Shown here one piece after another: positions 23,440-29,969 of a stretch of 38,494 bases of DNA. Every line of letters begins with the position of its first letter. Position 1 is the first letter of the stretch. Position numbers and translations under genes: made by a program. The notes below the pieces were generated by a model. That model did no database searches and was not told the origin of the DNA. It worked only from the letters and a program-made list of their open reading frames with translations. Origin of the DNA: Desulfobacula sp. (GTDB lineage: Bacteria; Desulfobacterota; Desulfobacteria; Desulfobacterales; Desulfobacteraceae); NCBI GenBank assembly GCA_013792075.1, contig VMSR01000002.1, forward strand, positions 1 to 38,494, given 5' to 3'.

Positions 23440-24974
23440 TTTACATCCTCCAAACAATTGAACAGCATGGCATGGTTTGATGAAAAAAAGGCGGGATTTT
23501 TCCTAAATTCCGATCCAATGGCCAACTGTTTTTTAAATACCTTGTTTAAAAAATTTTTCACGTTTCGCCGCTCCCAGCCCGTGGGGTGGACAAAATTCAA
23601 ATACAAAGACAGATCCCCGTGGTAAAATTCATAGGTATCCAATTCATCGGCATCTTCACTGAATTTAGGCAAATTGAAAACCGCCAGGTTCAAATAATCA
23701 ATATCCTCCTTGTGACCCTCAATATAATCAAGGGTTTTACGGGCAGCCGTCTCATCTTCGAAACTGGTACCGAACAAAAGGTAGACATAGGTCAGAATCC
23801 CTGCTTGCTTAAGATTTTTAAGGGTCGTAGAAACCATGACAAGATCCGTTCCCTTGTTCATTTGGTCTAGCACATTCTGATCCCCGGATTCAAGACCCAA
23901 TTTGAGCATTTCACATCCGCTTTTCTTTAAAGCATGACAGAAATCAAGACTTAAAAATTCCCGTTCAAACCGCACAAACCCATACCATTTAAAGCCCAGT
24001 TGGGTTTCGGACAATGTTCTTAAAAAGGCCGGGGTAACGGCATTGTCAATAAAATGGACATAATCGGGAGAATATTTTTGGGTCATTTTTTTCAGATCTG
24101 CCAGGACCTTGGCAGCCCGCTGGGTGGAATAGGGACGGGTTTCCGCTTTTTCCGGACAAAACCGGCATTTGCGCCAATAGCAGCCAATGGATGCCCTGAA
24201 GGGAAGAATCGTCCCAGGTGCCAGGTAGGCATGGTTCTTTGCAAATCCGTAATCCGGCACATAGTGTTTTTGCAGGGTGTCAGGAACCCCAAGAAGCGCC
24301 AGAAGCGGTTGCTCGCCCTCCCCTTTGATCATCACGTCAATTAAATCTGAAAAAGGATTGTCACGCCCCCCTCCGAATCCGGGCCGGCTCATCCATGAAG
24401 AAACAAGCCCTCCGCCCATGACCAATTTCTTTTCTTTAAAATTTTGTTTTATCCAGCCGGCAAGGGCAAAACTGACAAGGGCCTGGTTCAAATAACAAAG
24501 GGAAATTCCCACATATTGTGCATCAGAGGCCAAAATCAGGGGCCGGATTTTTTCTTCAAAAAACGGATAAAACGGATTTTCCTCGTAAAAGGCAGCACTT
24601 TTCAGAAGATCCCGGCTATCCACGGACGAGAGTTTGTTATCCGAATAATCACTCAGGCTGATCTTAAACCGGGTTTGATCCACGGCCGTTGCCACAAGTC
24701 TGTTCAGGTCATATACCCGCTGGTGATAGCGGTCCACATTGGTATAAAGCCCAGGGGTTTTCAAATCCGATAAAATGAGGTCCCGGTTCTTCTTTGCACG
24801 CAAAGACCAGGAATCGCATGCATCATGATCCGATTGAATTAAGTACATCAATCCTTCGACACTGGCATCATATACCGTGCAGGGCAATCCGTGATCCTTC
24901 AAAGCTGCGGATAACAATGCCACCCCGGCAGGGGGTTCACAGGGTTTTGCAACCGGGGGAAAGAGTAACAGCAT
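23436..24974 (-). CDS. B12-binding-domain radical SAM protein of unknown function
   Basis: About 512 residues. The N-terminus (LLLFPPVAKPCEPPAGVALLSAALKDHG, about 1-35) resembles the cobalamin-binding fold common in class B radical SAM enzymes. The radical SAM core has cysteines near 265, 270 and 273 (GCYWRKCRFCPEKAE), a CX4CX2C spacing instead of CX3CX2C; this spacing is known in the 'GCPWNKCTFC' branch. A later KLGLESGDQNVLDQMNKG stretch is typical of the SAM domain's beta strands. ATG 24974 starts at the conserved region; an in-frame GTG at 24980 and a longer reading to 25043 are possible. Reaction unknown. It leads the operon with cinA and the RND pump genes. Confidence 0.85.
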   Translation of the reverse strand: MLLLFPPVAKPCEPPAGVALLSAALKDHGLPCTVYDASVEGLMYLIQSDHDACDSWSLRAKKNRDLILSDLKTPGLYTNVDRYHQRVYDLNRLVATAVDQTRFKISLSDYSDNKLSSVDSRDLLKSAAFYEENPFYPFFEEKIRPLILASDAQYVGISLCYLNQALVSFALAGWIKQNFKEKKLVMGGGLVSSWMSRPGFGGGRDNPFSDLIDVMIKGEGEQPLLALLGVPDTLQKHYVPDYGFAKNHAYLAPGTILPFRASIGCYWRKCRFCPEKAETRPYSTQRAAKVLADLKKMTQKYSPDYVHFIDNAVTPAFLRTLSETQLGFKWYGFVRFEREFLSLDFCHALKKSGCEMLKLGLESGDQNVLDQMNKGTDLVMVSTTLKNLKQAGILTYVYLLFGTSFEDETAARKTLDYIEGHKEDIDYLNLAVFNLPKFSEDADELDTYEFYHGDLSLYLNFVHPTGWERRNVKNFLNKVFKKQLAIGSEFRKNPAFFSSNHAMLFNCLEDVK

Positions 24975-25132
24975 AACCACCTTATCCTCTTTAAAATTTA
25001 AAAAATCAGTTGTGAACCTATCATATTTGATTCGAATCCACACTTGAAAATTTATTTTTTATCCCATGGAAATCACAAAAGAAATGGTCTTGTGCCCAAA
25101 GCATTTTGTTTCTACATATAGAAACATTTGTA

Positions 25133-25161
25133 TTGACAAGCCGTCTCAAATCCTTTAAATA
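25133..25161 (+). promoter_or_regulatory. candidate trp operon promoter
   Basis: A perfect TTGACA (25133-25138) is followed by an AT-rich TTAAATA -10 region (25155-25161) at 16-17 bases. Transcription would start near 25167, about 35 bases before the leader peptide ATG. Confidence 0.55.
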
Positions 25162-25201
25162 CTACCCTACCAGTTTACACGATACGAATCAGGGCAATTT
25201 G

Positions 25202-25279
25202 ATGGAACAATTTCAGTCAGAAAACAAAAGGGTTTTTCAGTGGCAAGCCTGGCCGATATGGCGGTTGCTGCTGCTTTAA
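25202..25279 (+). CDS. trpL: trp operon leader peptide
   Basis: A 25-residue open frame starting ATG, with AGGG 7 bases upstream. It has three tryptophan codons (TGG) at residues 14, 17 and 20, within QWQAWPIWR, followed by four Leu codons and TAA. It lies 136 bases before trpE, just ahead of a hairpin set and a T8 terminator. High Trp density in a tiny frame at this position is the hallmark of a ribosome-stalling leader. The peptide has no function besides being translated. Confidence 0.85.
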   Translation: MEQFQSENKRVFQWQAWPIWRLLLL

Positions 25280-25388
25280 ACTCTTGTTTGACCCTCTAAA
25301 CATAAGACATTGCAGCAGCCGATCCAAAAAGCTGTTGCAGTCACCCGGAAAAGGCTGCATACATGAATGACCTGCACGCCTTTTTTTT
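25265..25388 (+). promoter_or_regulatory. transcription attenuator of the trp operon
   Basis: Segment 1 TGCTGCTGC (25266-25274), inside the end of the leader peptide, can pair with segment 2 GCAGCAGC (25312-25319). Segment 2 (GCAGCC, 25315-25320) can instead pair with GGCTGC (25353-25358) in the terminator's left arm. The terminator is AAAAGGCTGCA (25349-25359) with TGCACGCCTTTT (25373-25384), one bulged C, then T8 (25381-25388). A ribosome stalled at the Trp codons would cover segment 1, free segment 2, and prevent termination. A further GCTGTTGCA (25331-25339) can also pair with segment 2. Confidence 0.75.
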
Positions 25389-25415
25389 ATTTATGGACCC
25401 TTTAGGAACGACACC

Positions 25416-26918
25416 ATGATTTTAAAACAATTTCCCGATAAAGAAACATTTATTGAACTTGCAAAAACAGCCAATGTGATTCCGGTCTGTACAAGGGTGC
25501 TGGCGGATATGGATACCCCTGTCACACTTTTGCAAAAATGCTATGACAAAAACAAAGAAAGCTTTTTGCTGGAAAGTGTGGAAGGTGGGGAAAGATGGGC
25601 CAGATATAGTTTTTTAGGGGTATCTGCCTTTGGAAACGTCAAAATATTCAAGGACCATGTGGCGATCACCACCCAAAACAACCAGAAAAAAATCTTCCAT
25701 AACAATGACCCCCTGGGGGTGATGCGGACACTTATCGATGGGTATAGGCCTGCCGATATTCCGGACCTTCCCAGGTTCTGGAGCGGGCTTACCGGATATT
25801 TTACCTATGAGATGGTCTCTTTTTTCGAAGATATCCCGGTCAGCCTGCCCGAGGATACGCCCTATGGACATTTTATCATACCCGATCAGATGATCATCTT
25901 TGACAACATGAAACAGACCCTGACCTGCATAAAAATCTGTTACCTGGCAGATCCATCGGCCCGATCGGGTGATCCGGGGGAAGCCTATGACGCCGCACAA
26001 GCAGACCTTGCAACCCTTGTGGACAAAATCAATCAACCCTTTAAAAAACCCGTTTACGCAAAACAGGAGAATGTCAGTTTTACCCCCCAAACATCGGAAG
26101 CCGAATACCTTTTGGGCGTTGAAACCATAAAAGCGCATATTGTGGAAGGCAATATTTTCCAGGCAGTCTATTCCCAGCCCTTTTCCTGTGACATCCGAAT
26201 AGACCCGATTCTCATCTACAGGGCACAGCGGTATATCAACCCCTCCCCCTATATGTTCTTCATGAATTTTCCCGACCGGGTGATCGCCGGCTCATCCCCT
26301 GAAACCATGGTTCGGCTGGAAAACAAAATTGCCACCCTGCGGCCCATTGCCGGCACAAGGCCAAGGGGAGCAAACGAACAGCAGGACCGCGCCCTGGCCG
26401 ACGAACTCTTGAATGATGAAAAAGAAAGGGCTGAACATGTCATGCTCATTGATCTGGGCCGCAACGATCTTGGAAGGGTTGCCGAAGCCGGAACCGTCCA
26501 GGTCACCGACACCATGGTCATTGAACGCTATTCCCATGTCATGCATCTGGTCTCCAACATCACCTGCGATCTGAAACAGGACTGCGACGCCTTTGACCTG
26601 TTCAAGGCCACCTTTCCGGCAGGCACCCTGTCCGGGGCACCCAAAATACGGGCCATGGAAATCATTTCAGAACTTGAAAACCGCCCCAGGGGAGTTTATG
26701 GTGGGGCGGCCGGGTATATTTCCTTTACCGGAAATATGGATTTTGCCATCACCATCCGCACGGCTGTTATGGAAAATGGAACCCTCACCGTCCAGGCCGG
26801 TGCCGGGATTGTCCATGACTCAGATCCAAAAACAGAGCTTGACGAGTGCAAAAACAAGGCAAAGAGCGTTGAAACCGCTTTAAAACTTGCCCTTTCAAAT
26901 ATTAACGGAGGCAGATAA
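25416..26918 (+). CDS. trpE: anthranilate synthase component I
   Basis: Large subunit that makes anthranilate from chorismate, with ammonia from TrpG. The 500-residue protein has the N-terminal LLES tryptophan-feedback motif (SFLLESVEGGERWARYSF, about residues 48-65), PYMFFMNFP, SSPETMVRL, PIAGTRPRG, DLGRNDLGRV, and the C-terminal TFPAGTLSGAPKIRAMEII and GGAAGYISF chorismate-binding motifs. AGGA lies 8 bases before the ATG. It is the first structural gene after the attenuator. The trpG ATG follows directly on its stop codon. The product is therefore likely controlled both by leader attenuation and by Trp feedback. Confidence 0.97.
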   Translation: MILKQFPDKETFIELAKTANVIPVCTRVLADMDTPVTLLQKCYDKNKESFLLESVEGGERWARYSFLGVSAFGNVKIFKDHVAITTQNNQKKIFHNNDPLGVMRTLIDGYRPADIPDLPRFWSGLTGYFTYEMVSFFEDIPVSLPEDTPYGHFIIPDQMIIFDNMKQTLTCIKICYLADPSARSGDPGEAYDAAQADLATLVDKINQPFKKPVYAKQENVSFTPQTSEAEYLLGVETIKAHIVEGNIFQAVYSQPFSCDIRIDPILIYRAQRYINPSPYMFFMNFPDRVIAGSSPETMVRLENKIATLRPIAGTRPRGANEQQDRALADELLNDEKERAEHVMLIDLGRNDLGRVAEAGTVQVTDTMVIERYSHVMHLVSNITCDLKQDCDAFDLFKATFPAGTLSGAPKIRAMEIISELENRPRGVYGGAAGYISFTGNMDFAITIRTAVMENGTLTVQAGAGIVHDSDPKTELDECKNKAKSVETALKLALSNINGGR

Positions 26919-27488
26919 ATGCAGGTCGCCATTATTGATAACTATGATTCTTTTACATTCAATCTGGTCCACTATGTTCTCCACACAGGCGCCGAAGTTC
27001 AGGTTTTCAGAAATGACAAAATCAGTGTGGAAGCGCTTTTGGCATTAAATCCAGGGGCCATCGTGATCTCGCCGGGACCCGGAAGACCCGAAGATGCAGG
27101 GATTTCCCTGGATGTGGTCAAACAATTGTCCGGTATTATTCCCATTTTAGGGGTATGCCTGGGCCACCAGACCATTGCCCAGAGTTTCGGGGGAACCATT
27201 GTCCATGCCAAACGGATCATGCATGGGAAAACCTCCACTGTGACTGCCGACGGTGAGCACATTTTTTCAGGACTGAAAAAACCCTTTTCCGTGATGCGCT
27301 ACCATTCCCTGGCAGTCCGGGAAGAGGATCTGCCCGATTGCCTTGTGGTTACGGCCAGGACAGAAGACGGCGAGATCATGGGTATCCGCCACAGGTCCCA
27401 CCCCACCCAGGGCGTGCAGTTCCACCCGGAATCCTTTATGACCACCGTGGGAAAGCGGCTGATCCGGAACTTTATCAAAGGAGTATGA
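26919..27488 (+). CDS. trpG: anthranilate synthase component II (glutamine amidotransferase)
   Basis: Class I glutamine amidotransferase subunit that supplies ammonia to TrpE; 189 residues. N-terminus IIDNYDSFTFNLVHY, the oxyanion strand ISPGPGRPEDAG, the catalytic cysteine in LGVCLGHQTIAQ near residue 79, and the His/Glu of the triad in VQFHPESF near 170. The ribosome binding site GGAGG is inside the end of trpE, and the ATG abuts the trpE stop. A PabA role as well is possible, as in bacteria with a shared amidotransferase. Confidence 0.96.
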   Translation: MQVAIIDNYDSFTFNLVHYVLHTGAEVQVFRNDKISVEALLALNPGAIVISPGPGRPEDAGISLDVVKQLSGIIPILGVCLGHQTIAQSFGGTIVHAKRIMHGKTSTVTADGEHIFSGLKKPFSVMRYHSLAVREEDLPDCLVVTARTEDGEIMGIRHRSHPTQGVQFHPESFMTTVGKRLIRNFIKGV

Positions 27489-27489
27489 C

Positions 27490-28508
27490 ATGACATTTAC
27501 CGCCAACCTCAACACCATTATTTCAGGCCAGGACCTTGACCAGGAGCGCATGTCCTCCATGCTCTTCGATATCTTTTCAGGTACGATCACAGAAAGCCAG
27601 ATCGGGGCTTTCATGGTAGCCCTTGCCACCAAGGGGGAAACCTTTGAAGAGCTGGCAGGGGCAGCCCGTGCCATGCGACGAAAGGCCGTCCGCATCCAGG
27701 CCCTGTCCAAAAAGGTGATTGATACCTGCGGCACAGGCGGAGATGCCTCGGGTTCTTTCAATATTTCCACCACCACAGCCTTTGTGATTGCAGGAGCAGG
27801 TGTCACCGTGGCCAAGCACGGCAACAGGAGCATTTCCAGCAAATGCGGCAGCGCCGATGTTTTAGAGGCCCTGGGCGTCAACCTGAACACAGATCCTGAA
27901 ATTGTGGAAGAGGCCATCAACGACATCGGCATTGGCTTCATGTTTGCCCCCATGTACCACGGGTCCATGAAATATGCCGGCAAGGCAAGGAAGGAGTGCG
28001 GTATCCGCAGCATTTTCAATATGCTGGGACCTTTGACCAATCCGGCGGCTGCCTCCTGCCAGATCCTGGGCGTTTATGCCCCGGCTCTCACGGAAATGTT
28101 TGCCAGTGCCCTCAAGCTTCTTGGGTGGAACGCGCCTTTGTGGTCCATGGCCACGACGGAATGGACGAAATCACCACCACCACGCTGACACGGGTATCTG
28201 AACTTAAGGACAATACCATTAAATCCTATGACCTGGATCCGCTGAACTATTTTAACGATTATGCGGATCCCAAGGACCTCAAAGGCGGCGATGTTAACGA
28301 AAATGCCGCCATTACCCGGGCAATTCTAAAGGGAGAAAAAGGCCCCAAACGCGATATTGTCCTGATCAATTCAGGGGCCGGCCTTGTGGCAGCCAATGTT
28401 GCCCAGACCATTGAACAGGGGATCGCCCTTTCAAAGGAAGCCATTGATTCCGGCAAGGCCTTAGAAAAACTTAGGCTTTTGGTCCAATACACACAGGAGA
28501 ACGGCTAG
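27490..28508 (+). pseudogene. trpD: anthranilate phosphoribosyltransferase, interrupted by a one-base frameshift
   Basis: Transfers phosphoribosyl from PRPP to anthranilate. The first frame (to 28188) holds the helical N-terminus and the PRPP motif DTCGTGGDASGSFNIS (near residue 78), KHGNRSISSKCGSADVLEALG and RSIFNMLGPLTNPA. The reading then shifts after ALKLLG. The remaining part (VERAFVVHGHDGMDEITTTT and the rest) lies in the next frame to 28508. One extra G in the GGG at 28123-28125 gives LLGVERAFVV and a 339-residue protein, the family length. As given, the gene would yield an inactive product with a false tail. Because its neighbours are intact, a sequencing or assembly error is a leading explanation. 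Confidence 0.92.
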
Positions 28509-28509
28509 G

Positions 28510-29316
28510 ATGAAAGTGGAAGGATTTTTAAGAAAAATGAAGGCTGTCAAGCAGGAAGAAATAGACCGCCATAGATCGGTCATACCCCTGAAAGTATTGC
28601 GCCGTGATGCCGAACAGACAATGGTTCCGCCAAGTTTTCTGTCTGCCATGGCAAAAGGTTCCAGGGACCATGTGGGAATCATTGCGGAAATTAAAAAAGC
28701 CTCCCCGTCCAAGGGAGATATACGGCCGGATCTGGATGTGGCGACCTATGTTGAACGCTATACCCAATCCGGGGCCAGGGCCATTTCCGTCCTCACCGAA
28801 CCCTGCTATTTCAAAGGCAGCCTCGACGATCTTGCACTTGCCTGCAAGACCACAGACCTGCCGGTACTCAGAAAGGATTTTATCATCCATGAGTATCAGA
28901 TCTTTGAAGGCAAAAAGGCCGGGGCAGCCGCCATTCTGCTGATCACAACCCTGCTCTCAAAAAAGCAGCAGAAAGACTATACCAGCCTTATCCGGGACCT
29001 TGGCATGGAACCCCTGGTGGAAATAAATTCCGAGTGGGAATTTGAACAGGCCTATACCGCAGGCGCCAAGGTAGTGGGCATCAACAATCGGAACCTGCAA
29101 ACCCTTGAAACCGATCCCACCATTGCCCAGCGGGTGGTAAAAATTTTCCCCAGGGATATCATTCCTGTGGAGGCCTCGGGAATTTCAAACAGGCAAGACA
29201 TTGAAAAAGGACTGGACCACACTATTTTTAATTTCCTGGTGGGAGAAAGCATTGTCAGGGCCGAAGATACCAAAGCCTTTATCCGGTCACTTTGCCAGGA
29301 GACAAAACGCGATTGA
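28510..29316 (+). CDS. trpC: indole-3-glycerol phosphate synthase
   Basis: TIM-barrel enzyme that closes the indole ring to give indole-3-glycerol phosphate, 268 residues. Typical segments include IIAEIKKASPSKG (substrate-binding Lys), ISVLTEPCYFKGS, VLRKDFIIHEYQI, GINNRNLQTLETD, and VEASGISNRQDI. It is separate from TrpF, unlike the fused enzyme of E. coli. AGGAG lies 10 bases before the ATG. It begins one base after the trpD stop. The stop codon overlaps the likely TTG start of trpF. Confidence 0.96.
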   Translation: MKVEGFLRKMKAVKQEEIDRHRSVIPLKVLRRDAEQTMVPPSFLSAMAKGSRDHVGIIAEIKKASPSKGDIRPDLDVATYVERYTQSGARAISVLTEPCYFKGSLDDLALACKTTDLPVLRKDFIIHEYQIFEGKKAGAAAILLITTLLSKKQQKDYTSLIRDLGMEPLVEINSEWEFEQAYTAGAKVVGINNRNLQTLETDPTIAQRVVKIFPRDIIPVEASGISNRQDIEKGLDHTIFNFLVGESIVRAEDTKAFIRSLCQETKRD

Positions 29317-29969
29317 AACAACTCACCTTTCACCTTCCCGACCACAGGCCGCTGATCAAAATCTGCGGTCTGACCCGGCCGGAAAATGCCCTGGCCTGTG
29401 CCAAGGCCGGTGCCGATGCCATTGGCCTTGTCTTTTTTGAAAAAAGCCCCAGAAACGTATCAATGGAAACGGCAAGGTCCGTCACCCGGGTCCTTCCCGC
29501 CCATATCCTGACCTGCGGCGTCTTTGTGGATGAATCCTTTGAATTTATCATGGAACGGGTTGAACACTGTGGTTTTTCGGCGGTTCAACTCCATGGACGG
29601 GAGTCCGCAACACTGGTGGAAAAACTGGCAAACCAAAATCTTTTGGTCATCAAGGCCCTGTTTGCGACCCATAAACCGGATCTGTCCGATGCTCACCTCT
29701 ATGAAGCTGCCTCTTTCTGCCTTGTGGAATATGGCAAAGGCATTCTTCCCGGGGGCAATGCCGAAAGCTGGGATTATGGTTTATCCGCAGGGCTGAGCAC
29801 CCGCCTGCCCCTGATGCTGGCCGGCGGGCTTACGCCTGGAAACGTCCAGAAAGCCATCCAGATTGCAAACCCCATGGCAGTGGATGTCTCGTCTGGAGTG
29901 GAAAAAGCCTACGGACTCAAAGATATGAAAAAAGTAACCGCGTTTATTCACAAAATCCGATCTATCTGA
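29313..29969 (+). CDS. trpF: phosphoribosylanthranilate isomerase
   Basis: TIM-barrel isomerase (Amadori rearrangement) of 218 residues. It has KICGLTRPENALACAKAGADAIG with the catalytic Cys, GVFVDESFE with the catalytic Asp, VQLHG, LMLAGGLTPGNV and VDVSSGVEKAYGLKD. The best start is a TTG at 29313 that overlaps the trpC stop (TTGA), with AGGAG 11 bases upstream. Another TTG at 29292 would also fit. It is the last gene in this run: trpB and trpA do not follow, and the next gene is convergent. Confidence 0.93.
   Translation: MKQLTFHLPDHRPLIKICGLTRPENALACAKAGADAIGLVFFEKSPRNVSMETARSVTRVLPAHILTCGVFVDESFEFIMERVEHCGFSAVQLHGRESATLVEKLANQNLLVIKALFATHKPDLSDAHLYEAASFCLVEYGKGILPGGNAESWDYGLSAGLSTRLPLMLAGGLTPGNVQKAIQIANPMAVDVSSGVEKAYGLKDMKKVTAFIHKIRSI

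Follow-up and report, generated by a model that had tools for sequence, protein, structure and literature searches.

A probable hairpin-relay attenuator in the trp leader of a Desulfobacula genome

The trpEGDCF operon of a Desulfobacula genome is very probably preceded by a transcription attenuator, in which sequence and modeled folds point to a relay of mutually exclusive RNA hairpins, B:C with D:E against C:D with E:F. The element lies in the window analyzed here, a 38,494-nt stretch of contig VMSR01000002.1 (GenBank assembly GCA_013792075.1). An earlier note on this DNA, made from its letters, had claimed ribosome-mediated attenuation of trpE through a Trp-containing leader peptide. That claim is well supported by sequence comparison and fold modeling: the Trp codons, the terminator, and the B:C pairing all recur in relatives. 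The leader, the complementarities, their recurrence, and the dependence of the predicted folds on ribosome position are supported directly. From these we infer the ribosome footprint, a kinetic (nonequilibrium) choice between folds, and a response of the leader to tryptophan.

The trp leader and its operon

The window's genome (5.3 Mb, 308 contigs) is of the Desulfobacteraceae type, and the closest full-length named trpE loci, 85–86% identical, come from Desulfobacteraceae metagenome-assembled genomes. The features of the locus, in window coordinates, are as follows.

25108..25125, no strand assigned: palindrome GTTTCTACATATAGAAAC just before the −35 box, a candidate TrpR-type operator
25133..25138, + strand: −35 element TTGACA, read from the sequence
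25156..25161, + strand: weak candidate −10 element TAAATA, after a 17-nt spacer
25191..25194, + strand: candidate Shine–Dalgarno motif AGGG of the leader
25202..25279, + strand: trp leader peptide ORF of 25 codons, MEQFQSENKRVFQWQAWPIWRLLLL, with ATG at 25202 and TAA at 25277–25279
25238..25249, + strand: segment A, containing the first Trp codon and predicted to pair with B when no ribosome is present
25262..25274, + strand: segment B, the end of the leader ORF with its Leu codons, pairing with C
25310..25321, + strand: segment C, pairing with B or with D
25331..25342, + strand: segment D, of which 25331–25340 pairs with C and 25336–25342 with E (antiterminator)
25347..25359, + strand: segment E, the terminator 5′ arm, of which 25353–25359 pairs with D
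25373..25386, + strand: segment F, the terminator 3′ arm, running into T8 (25381–25388)
25416..26918, + strand: trpE, anthranilate synthase component I (PF00425 and PF04715)
26919..27488, + strand: trpG, glutamine amidotransferase (PF00117)
27490..28508, + strand: trpD (PF00591), in two reading frames, 27490–28188 and 27996–28508
28510..29316, + strand: trpC (PF00218)
29292..29969, + strand: trpF (PF00697)

Direct reading and re-derivation place the TGG codons of the leader at 25241, 25250, and 25259, which are codons 14, 17, and 20 of a 25-residue frame, just as the earlier note had them. TTGACA stands at the same place in four of five aligned relatives from the genus, and the fifth (L004) also has a TTGACA. 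A consensus scan of 24900–25500 listed neither this promoter nor the −10 candidate nor the terminator. In the operon itself, trpD is split over its overlapping frames, with positions 2–141 of PF00591 in the first and 141–253 in the second, reflecting a frameshift that is either real or an assembly error.

Complementary segments between leader and trpE

The three structural elements that had been reported from the letters, namely a Leu-codon run complementary to a downstream segment, the complementarity of that segment to the left arm of a terminator, and a T8 terminator right before trpE, are all present. Within the Leu run, TTGCTGCTGC (25265–25274) is complementary to GCAGCAGC (25312–25319), and the 71 nt from 25260 to 25330 fold at −22.5 kcal/mol (z −3.65), a value equaled by none of 200 shuffles. 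Against dinucleotide shuffles, the complementarity of leader end and C reaches p ≤ 0.05 in 34 of 45 family leaders; the window itself has p = 0.022. GCAGCC (25315–25320) in C is able to pair with GGCTGC (25353–25358) in E. The E:F terminator (25347–25386; stem −9.8 kcal/mol) leads into T8 just before trpE and is modest on its own, since 25330–25392 folds at −14.3 kcal/mol with z −1.26 and 25 of 200 shuffles do equally well. Folding of the leader, a check that the earlier note had proposed, gives z −1.91 for 25167–25400, with 4 of 200 shuffles equally good. Two further pairings went unlisted in that note: C:D, between 25310–25319 and 25331–25340, and the D:E hairpin, between 25336–25342 and 25353–25359; the palindrome at 25108–25125 is likewise absent from it.

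In the mechanism we propose, the ribosome translating the leader would serve as the sensor of Trp-tRNA. A shortage of Trp-tRNA would halt it at codon 14 or 17, the first Trp codons, leaving B free to pair with C; once B:C had formed, D would fold with E and RNA polymerase would read into trpE. With ample Trp-tRNA, translation would proceed to the stop codon and the ribosome would cover B, so that C:D would form, E would pair with F, and transcription would end at T8.

Predicted folds and ribosome position

The wiring was modeled in 20 leaders from the window's genus (g1) and a Desulfobacter-type genus (g4). Motifs, and not alignment columns, served to anchor the segments and count pairs, because two alignments (A2 and A4) misplace segment D between these genera. 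The ribosome footprint was modeled as −15 to +12 around the A site, with −12 to +10 and −17 to +14 as alternatives; all three footprints gave the same order for the first and last Trp stalls. In the 20 leaders B lies within the last 28 nt of the ORF, and the first TGG is 23–38 nt upstream of the B core. All 20 also have a TGG that precedes the B core by exactly 8 nt, and a stall at this invariant codon mostly predicts C:D and termination.

In the window, stalls at TGG 14 or 17 expose the Leu run, which is thus free to pair with C (B:C 0.95), and D makes the antiterminator (D:E 0.97–0.99). Only a ribosome at TGG 20 or at the stop codon covers the Leu run, with C:D at 0.57 and 0.95, respectively. 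When RNA 5′ and 3′ of the ribosome is allowed to fold, D:E falls to 0.02 at the stop codon, compared with 0.97 at codon 14. Over the 20 leaders, the same procedure gives mean values of 0.82 for B:C and 0.66 for D:E at the first-Trp stall, and 0.93 for C:D and 0.11 for D:E at the last. The stop state is mixed (B:C 0.49, C:D 0.49) because in 15 of the 20 leaders the stop codon lies 28 nt past the start of the B core and B is left uncovered. D:E is weak (<0.25) at the first-Trp stall in 4 of 11 Desulfobacter leaders (L009, L011, L013, and L016).

When this both-sides folding was compared with shuffles in 12 of the 20 leaders, the pairing of E with any partner differed at p ≤ 0.05 in just two, and the window gave p = 0.159. 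Folding of the 3′ RNA only was adopted after that negative result, and its stop state removes B by construction. It gives mean B:C of 0.94 and D:E of 0.80 at the first Trp codon and C:D of 0.94 and D:E of 0.17 at the stop codon, leaving D:E weak in two Desulfobacter leaders (L011 and L016). The change in E pairing then exceeds that of shuffles at p ≤ 0.05 in 16 of 20 leaders; the window alone has p = 0.069, with a stop-state C:D of only 0.43. Thus, an antiterminator whose predicted formation depends on ribosome position is found in silico, marginally so against shuffles for the window by itself, and so is a six-segment relay of the his type (B:C with D:E against C:D with E:F).

With the full RNA at equilibrium the terminator is preferred in most states, its mean being 0.80 even at the first-Trp stall, so antitermination would have to be kinetic. 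In the window its equilibrium probability at codon 14 was 0.87 and 0.64 in two computations, and at the stop codon it was 0.00, because a long-range fold wins once RNA behind the ribosome may pair. Being near 0.9 in many states and oddly 0.00 at the stop, this probability was set aside as a poor measure.

The same folds bear on the wiring that the earlier note had drawn, with the Leu run as segment 1, masked by a stalled ribosome, and with C blocking termination by pairing with the terminator arm E. We regard this four-segment arrangement as unlikely. It can draw on the GCAGCC/GGCTGC complementarity, on a fold of 25310–25365 that forms C:E at −17.4 kcal/mol, and on C:E values of 0.43–0.45 in the window with a stall at TGG 20 or no ribosome. 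However, C:E is at most 0.14 in the 19 other leaders and averages 0.00–0.03 over the 20 at every class of position and with every footprint. The Leu run, the first arm B of the relay, stays exposed when the ribosome stalls at codon 14 or 17, and C:D competes with C:E. In Desulfobacter, moreover, C ends in CAGCTT and E is GGCTGACA, leaving about four Watson–Crick pairs for C:E, whereas a D:E fold is available there with new bases.

The D:E hairpin of the relay can be formed by different bases in the two genera, TGCAGTC:GGCTGCA in the window and GTTGCGG..:GGCTGACAAC in Desulfobacter. Covariation in B:C and C:D is scant in the 20 leaders because these segments are nearly invariant; the pair of B-core base 5 with C-core base 4 is C-G in 11, T-G in 5, and T-A in 4. 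The earlier note is borne out in part: Trp codons, terminator, and B:C complementarity recur in relatives, and its wiring is not supported. An "inverse parity" mechanism, in which the stall leaves segment 1 free, was considered as a novelty and dropped; since the Leu run is the first antiterminator arm, the scheme with segment A counted is ordinary E. coli/his logic.

A candidate TrpR layer upstream of the promoter

The palindrome just upstream of the −35 box may be a TrpR-type operator outside the gammaproteobacteria, a candidate judged from its sequence and distribution. GTTTCTA-N3..5-TAGAAAC has its sole exact site in the window's genome here, and a reversed control has none. Of 84 family genomes, 38 contain the N4 form. 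Exact copies precede trpE in 31 of the 71 family regions read, nine of which lack a leader by our scan, and among 40 genomes of other families two (L151 and L161) have the palindrome before trpE. Of 18 further sites examined, 6 have trpB-like genes downstream, 5 second-TrpB-like genes, and 3 genes for substrate-binding proteins; 1 is again a trpE upstream region (L128), and 3 are without an obvious partner. One partner gene of each kind was verified by family search and the others were read from their N termini; L113 (trpB) and L115 (TrpB-like) score over curated cutoffs, and L121 is a periplasmic binding protein.

Each of the 12 genomes searched carries one TrpR-family gene over the Pfam cutoff (PF01371). 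The copy in the window's genome (L138) passes this cutoff and falls below the NCBIfam TrpR cutoff (50.8 vs. 67.25 bits). An imperfect palindrome with three mismatches lies 20 nt before that gene (1448–1465; ATG at 1486), and because other three-mismatch copies occur in the same loci, it is a weak signal. A survey of proteobacterial regulons (PMC5343134) places TrpR regulons in gammaproteobacteria and describes TrpR as absent from other classes.

These data could be read as meaning that the leader is translated, that a TrpR-type repressor at 25108–25125 is nevertheless the main control, and that the hairpins are only a leaky or constitutive early terminator. The distribution of the palindrome and the single TrpR-family gene per genome speak for a repressor. 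Yet such a repressor leaves unexplained the Trp-rich leader, the register of the leader to B, and the predicted fold switch, and the two layers are compatible, as in E. coli. As a replacement for attenuation we consider it improbable, slightly more so than the four-segment wiring.

Several genomes in which no Trp leader was found keep the palindrome upstream of trpE: L077 and L078 (g9) and L091, L096, L099, L100, and L101 (g3). They suggest control at initiation alone. L004 (G083) and L050/L107 (G043) have promoter and palindrome upstream of trpE and yielded no leader ORF. The L050 promoter almost directly adjoins a T-run hairpin, as though a deletion had removed the leader.

Recurrence in the family and order

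A TrpE-like match (E ≤ 1e-60) was obtained in 79 of 86 family genomes, for some of which it is just a weaker paralogue of ∼35% identity. Among the 71 family genomes whose upstream regions were read, 46 have a short Trp-rich leader upstream of trpE; 45 leaders were analyzed, L019 being dropped as having the same peptide as L017. The leader scan was blank in the other 25: all 9 read from g9 (probably Desulfotignum), all 10 read from g3 (probably Desulfamplus), and 6 more. Across the order, trpE is present in 93 of 116 genomes. Upstream DNA was taken for 40 of the 90 trpE genomes from other families; the choice mostly followed score rank, which biases the set toward nearer genomes. An automatic scan finds a Trp leader in 37 of these 40, a few of them doubtful, such as L160, which has no terminator. 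The Trp leader is thus widespread across the order and is no specialty of the window's lineage.

This recurrence, together with the absence of Rfam hits at gathering score from the leader and from eight related loci, makes it very improbable that another leader-RNA device (T-box, TRAP-like protein, or riboswitch) is at work beside a chance small ORF; no support for any of the three was found, and a scan of 25050–25450 with E up to 10 returned chance-level matches only, none of them RF00513.

Relation to known attenuators

In the E. coli trp attenuator, the antiterminator arm is free during a stall and is covered once the ribosome stands at the stop codon. The window has in common with E. coli trpL (RF00513) a short Trp leader, a coupled ribosome, and a terminator before trpE, and differs from it in having two more segments. 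The RF00513 covariance model gives no hit at gathering score in the window or in eight related loci. The relay layout amounts to one relay step more than the textbook trp switch, and many relatives have two linked stop signals.

The relay logic is that of the his attenuator of Salmonella and E. coli (hisL; RF00514), likewise a relay of exclusive hairpins, B:C with D:E against E:F (PMC4046918). There, A:B is described as the default without translation; the predicted A:B pairing in the absence of a ribosome is strong in the window (0.88), with a mean of 0.31 over the 20 leaders. The his leader senses His and has a run of seven His codons, whereas the window's leader would sense Trp and has three spaced Trp codons before trpE, and, in contrast to his, many relatives of the window have a terminator at C:D. 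Attenuation as a kind is already known; what makes the present case a variant is that a trp leader has the relay layout and that its relatives have coupled tandem terminators.

A literature search, with thin coverage of subscription papers, found no description of a trp attenuator in this bacterial group. Lopatovskaya et al. (2010), cited in PMC4833913 for work outlining "chains of RNA helices," may overlap with the trp relay. A 2013 survey with Rfam models judged a gammaproteobacterial origin of amino-acid attenuators, with few transfers, to be possible (PMC3766115). The trp attenuator described here is widespread yet goes unmatched by Rfam models, an example of what surveys of this type can overlook.

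Tandem terminators and a graded series

Many relatives carry two terminators in succession, as in 27 of the 37 leaders from other families, and in such tandem leaders the 3′ arm of terminator 1 can pair with the 5′ arm of terminator 2. In Desulfobacula-type leaders, C:D is a terminator with its own U-rich tail, and a second terminator is either absent (L029, L031, L049, and L070) or present (L023, L024, L025, L027, L045, L047, L048, L051, and L066). In L030, L057, and L058 there is one terminator only, and its 5′ arm can pair with the end of the leader (p = 0.066, 0.005, and 0.007, respectively). The predicted fold switches with ribosome position in L030; in L057 the terminator-arm pairing is independent of it (0.73 at the first three Trp stalls and 0.77 at the stop).

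The three-segment relatives L029, L030, L031, L049, L057, and L070 resemble actinobacterial trp attenuators, in which terminator and antiterminator share complementary triples after the Trp codons (Seliverstov et al. 2005; available part of PMC1262725) and which, as described there, have neither relay nor tandem terminators. For a corynebacterial comparison, see PMC10272879.

We give even odds to a broader reading, in which a tandem relay spans the order. The 3′ arm of terminator 1 would serve as the antiterminator 5′ arm of terminator 2, so that one stall would open both, and a wobble code would be written into the arms: with A-U in terminator 1 facing G-C in terminator 2, the useful D:E pairing (U-G) would be allowed and the idle C:F pairing (A-C) forbidden. 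The window's lineage would have lost the U-tract of terminator 1 and reached a his-type relay independently. Such a derivation of the window's relay, from a tandem arrangement whose first U-tract was lost, is what the compared leaders suggest. A series from three-segment to tandem to his-type relay within one order would offer a testable evolutionary path to a relay attenuator.

Tandem tests kept 36 loci, namely 26 of 27 from the order and 10 of 12 from the family. Mean D:E in these is −16.3 kcal/mol, near that of the terminators themselves (−19.4 and −17.4 kcal/mol). If terminator 2 merely copied terminator 1, C:F should gain as much as D:E. A locus's own D:E beats foreign combinations in 31 of 36 loci, compared with 22 of 36 for the matched control C:F; counted once per lineage, the figures are 20 and 16 of 25. 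Own B:C beats foreign in only 26 of 36 loci (16 of 25 by lineage). Where the arms of the two terminators differ, 48 positions permit D:E only and 14 permit C:F only; by lineage, 21 of 25 favor D:E, 1 favors C:F, and 3 tie, these lineages not being independent. Much of this signal may be one ancestral A-U/G-C difference. As for ribosome position, B:C before terminator 1 is higher at a Trp stall than at the stop codon in 28 of the 36 loci and lower in 2; the corresponding counts for D:E before terminator 2 are 22 and 6.
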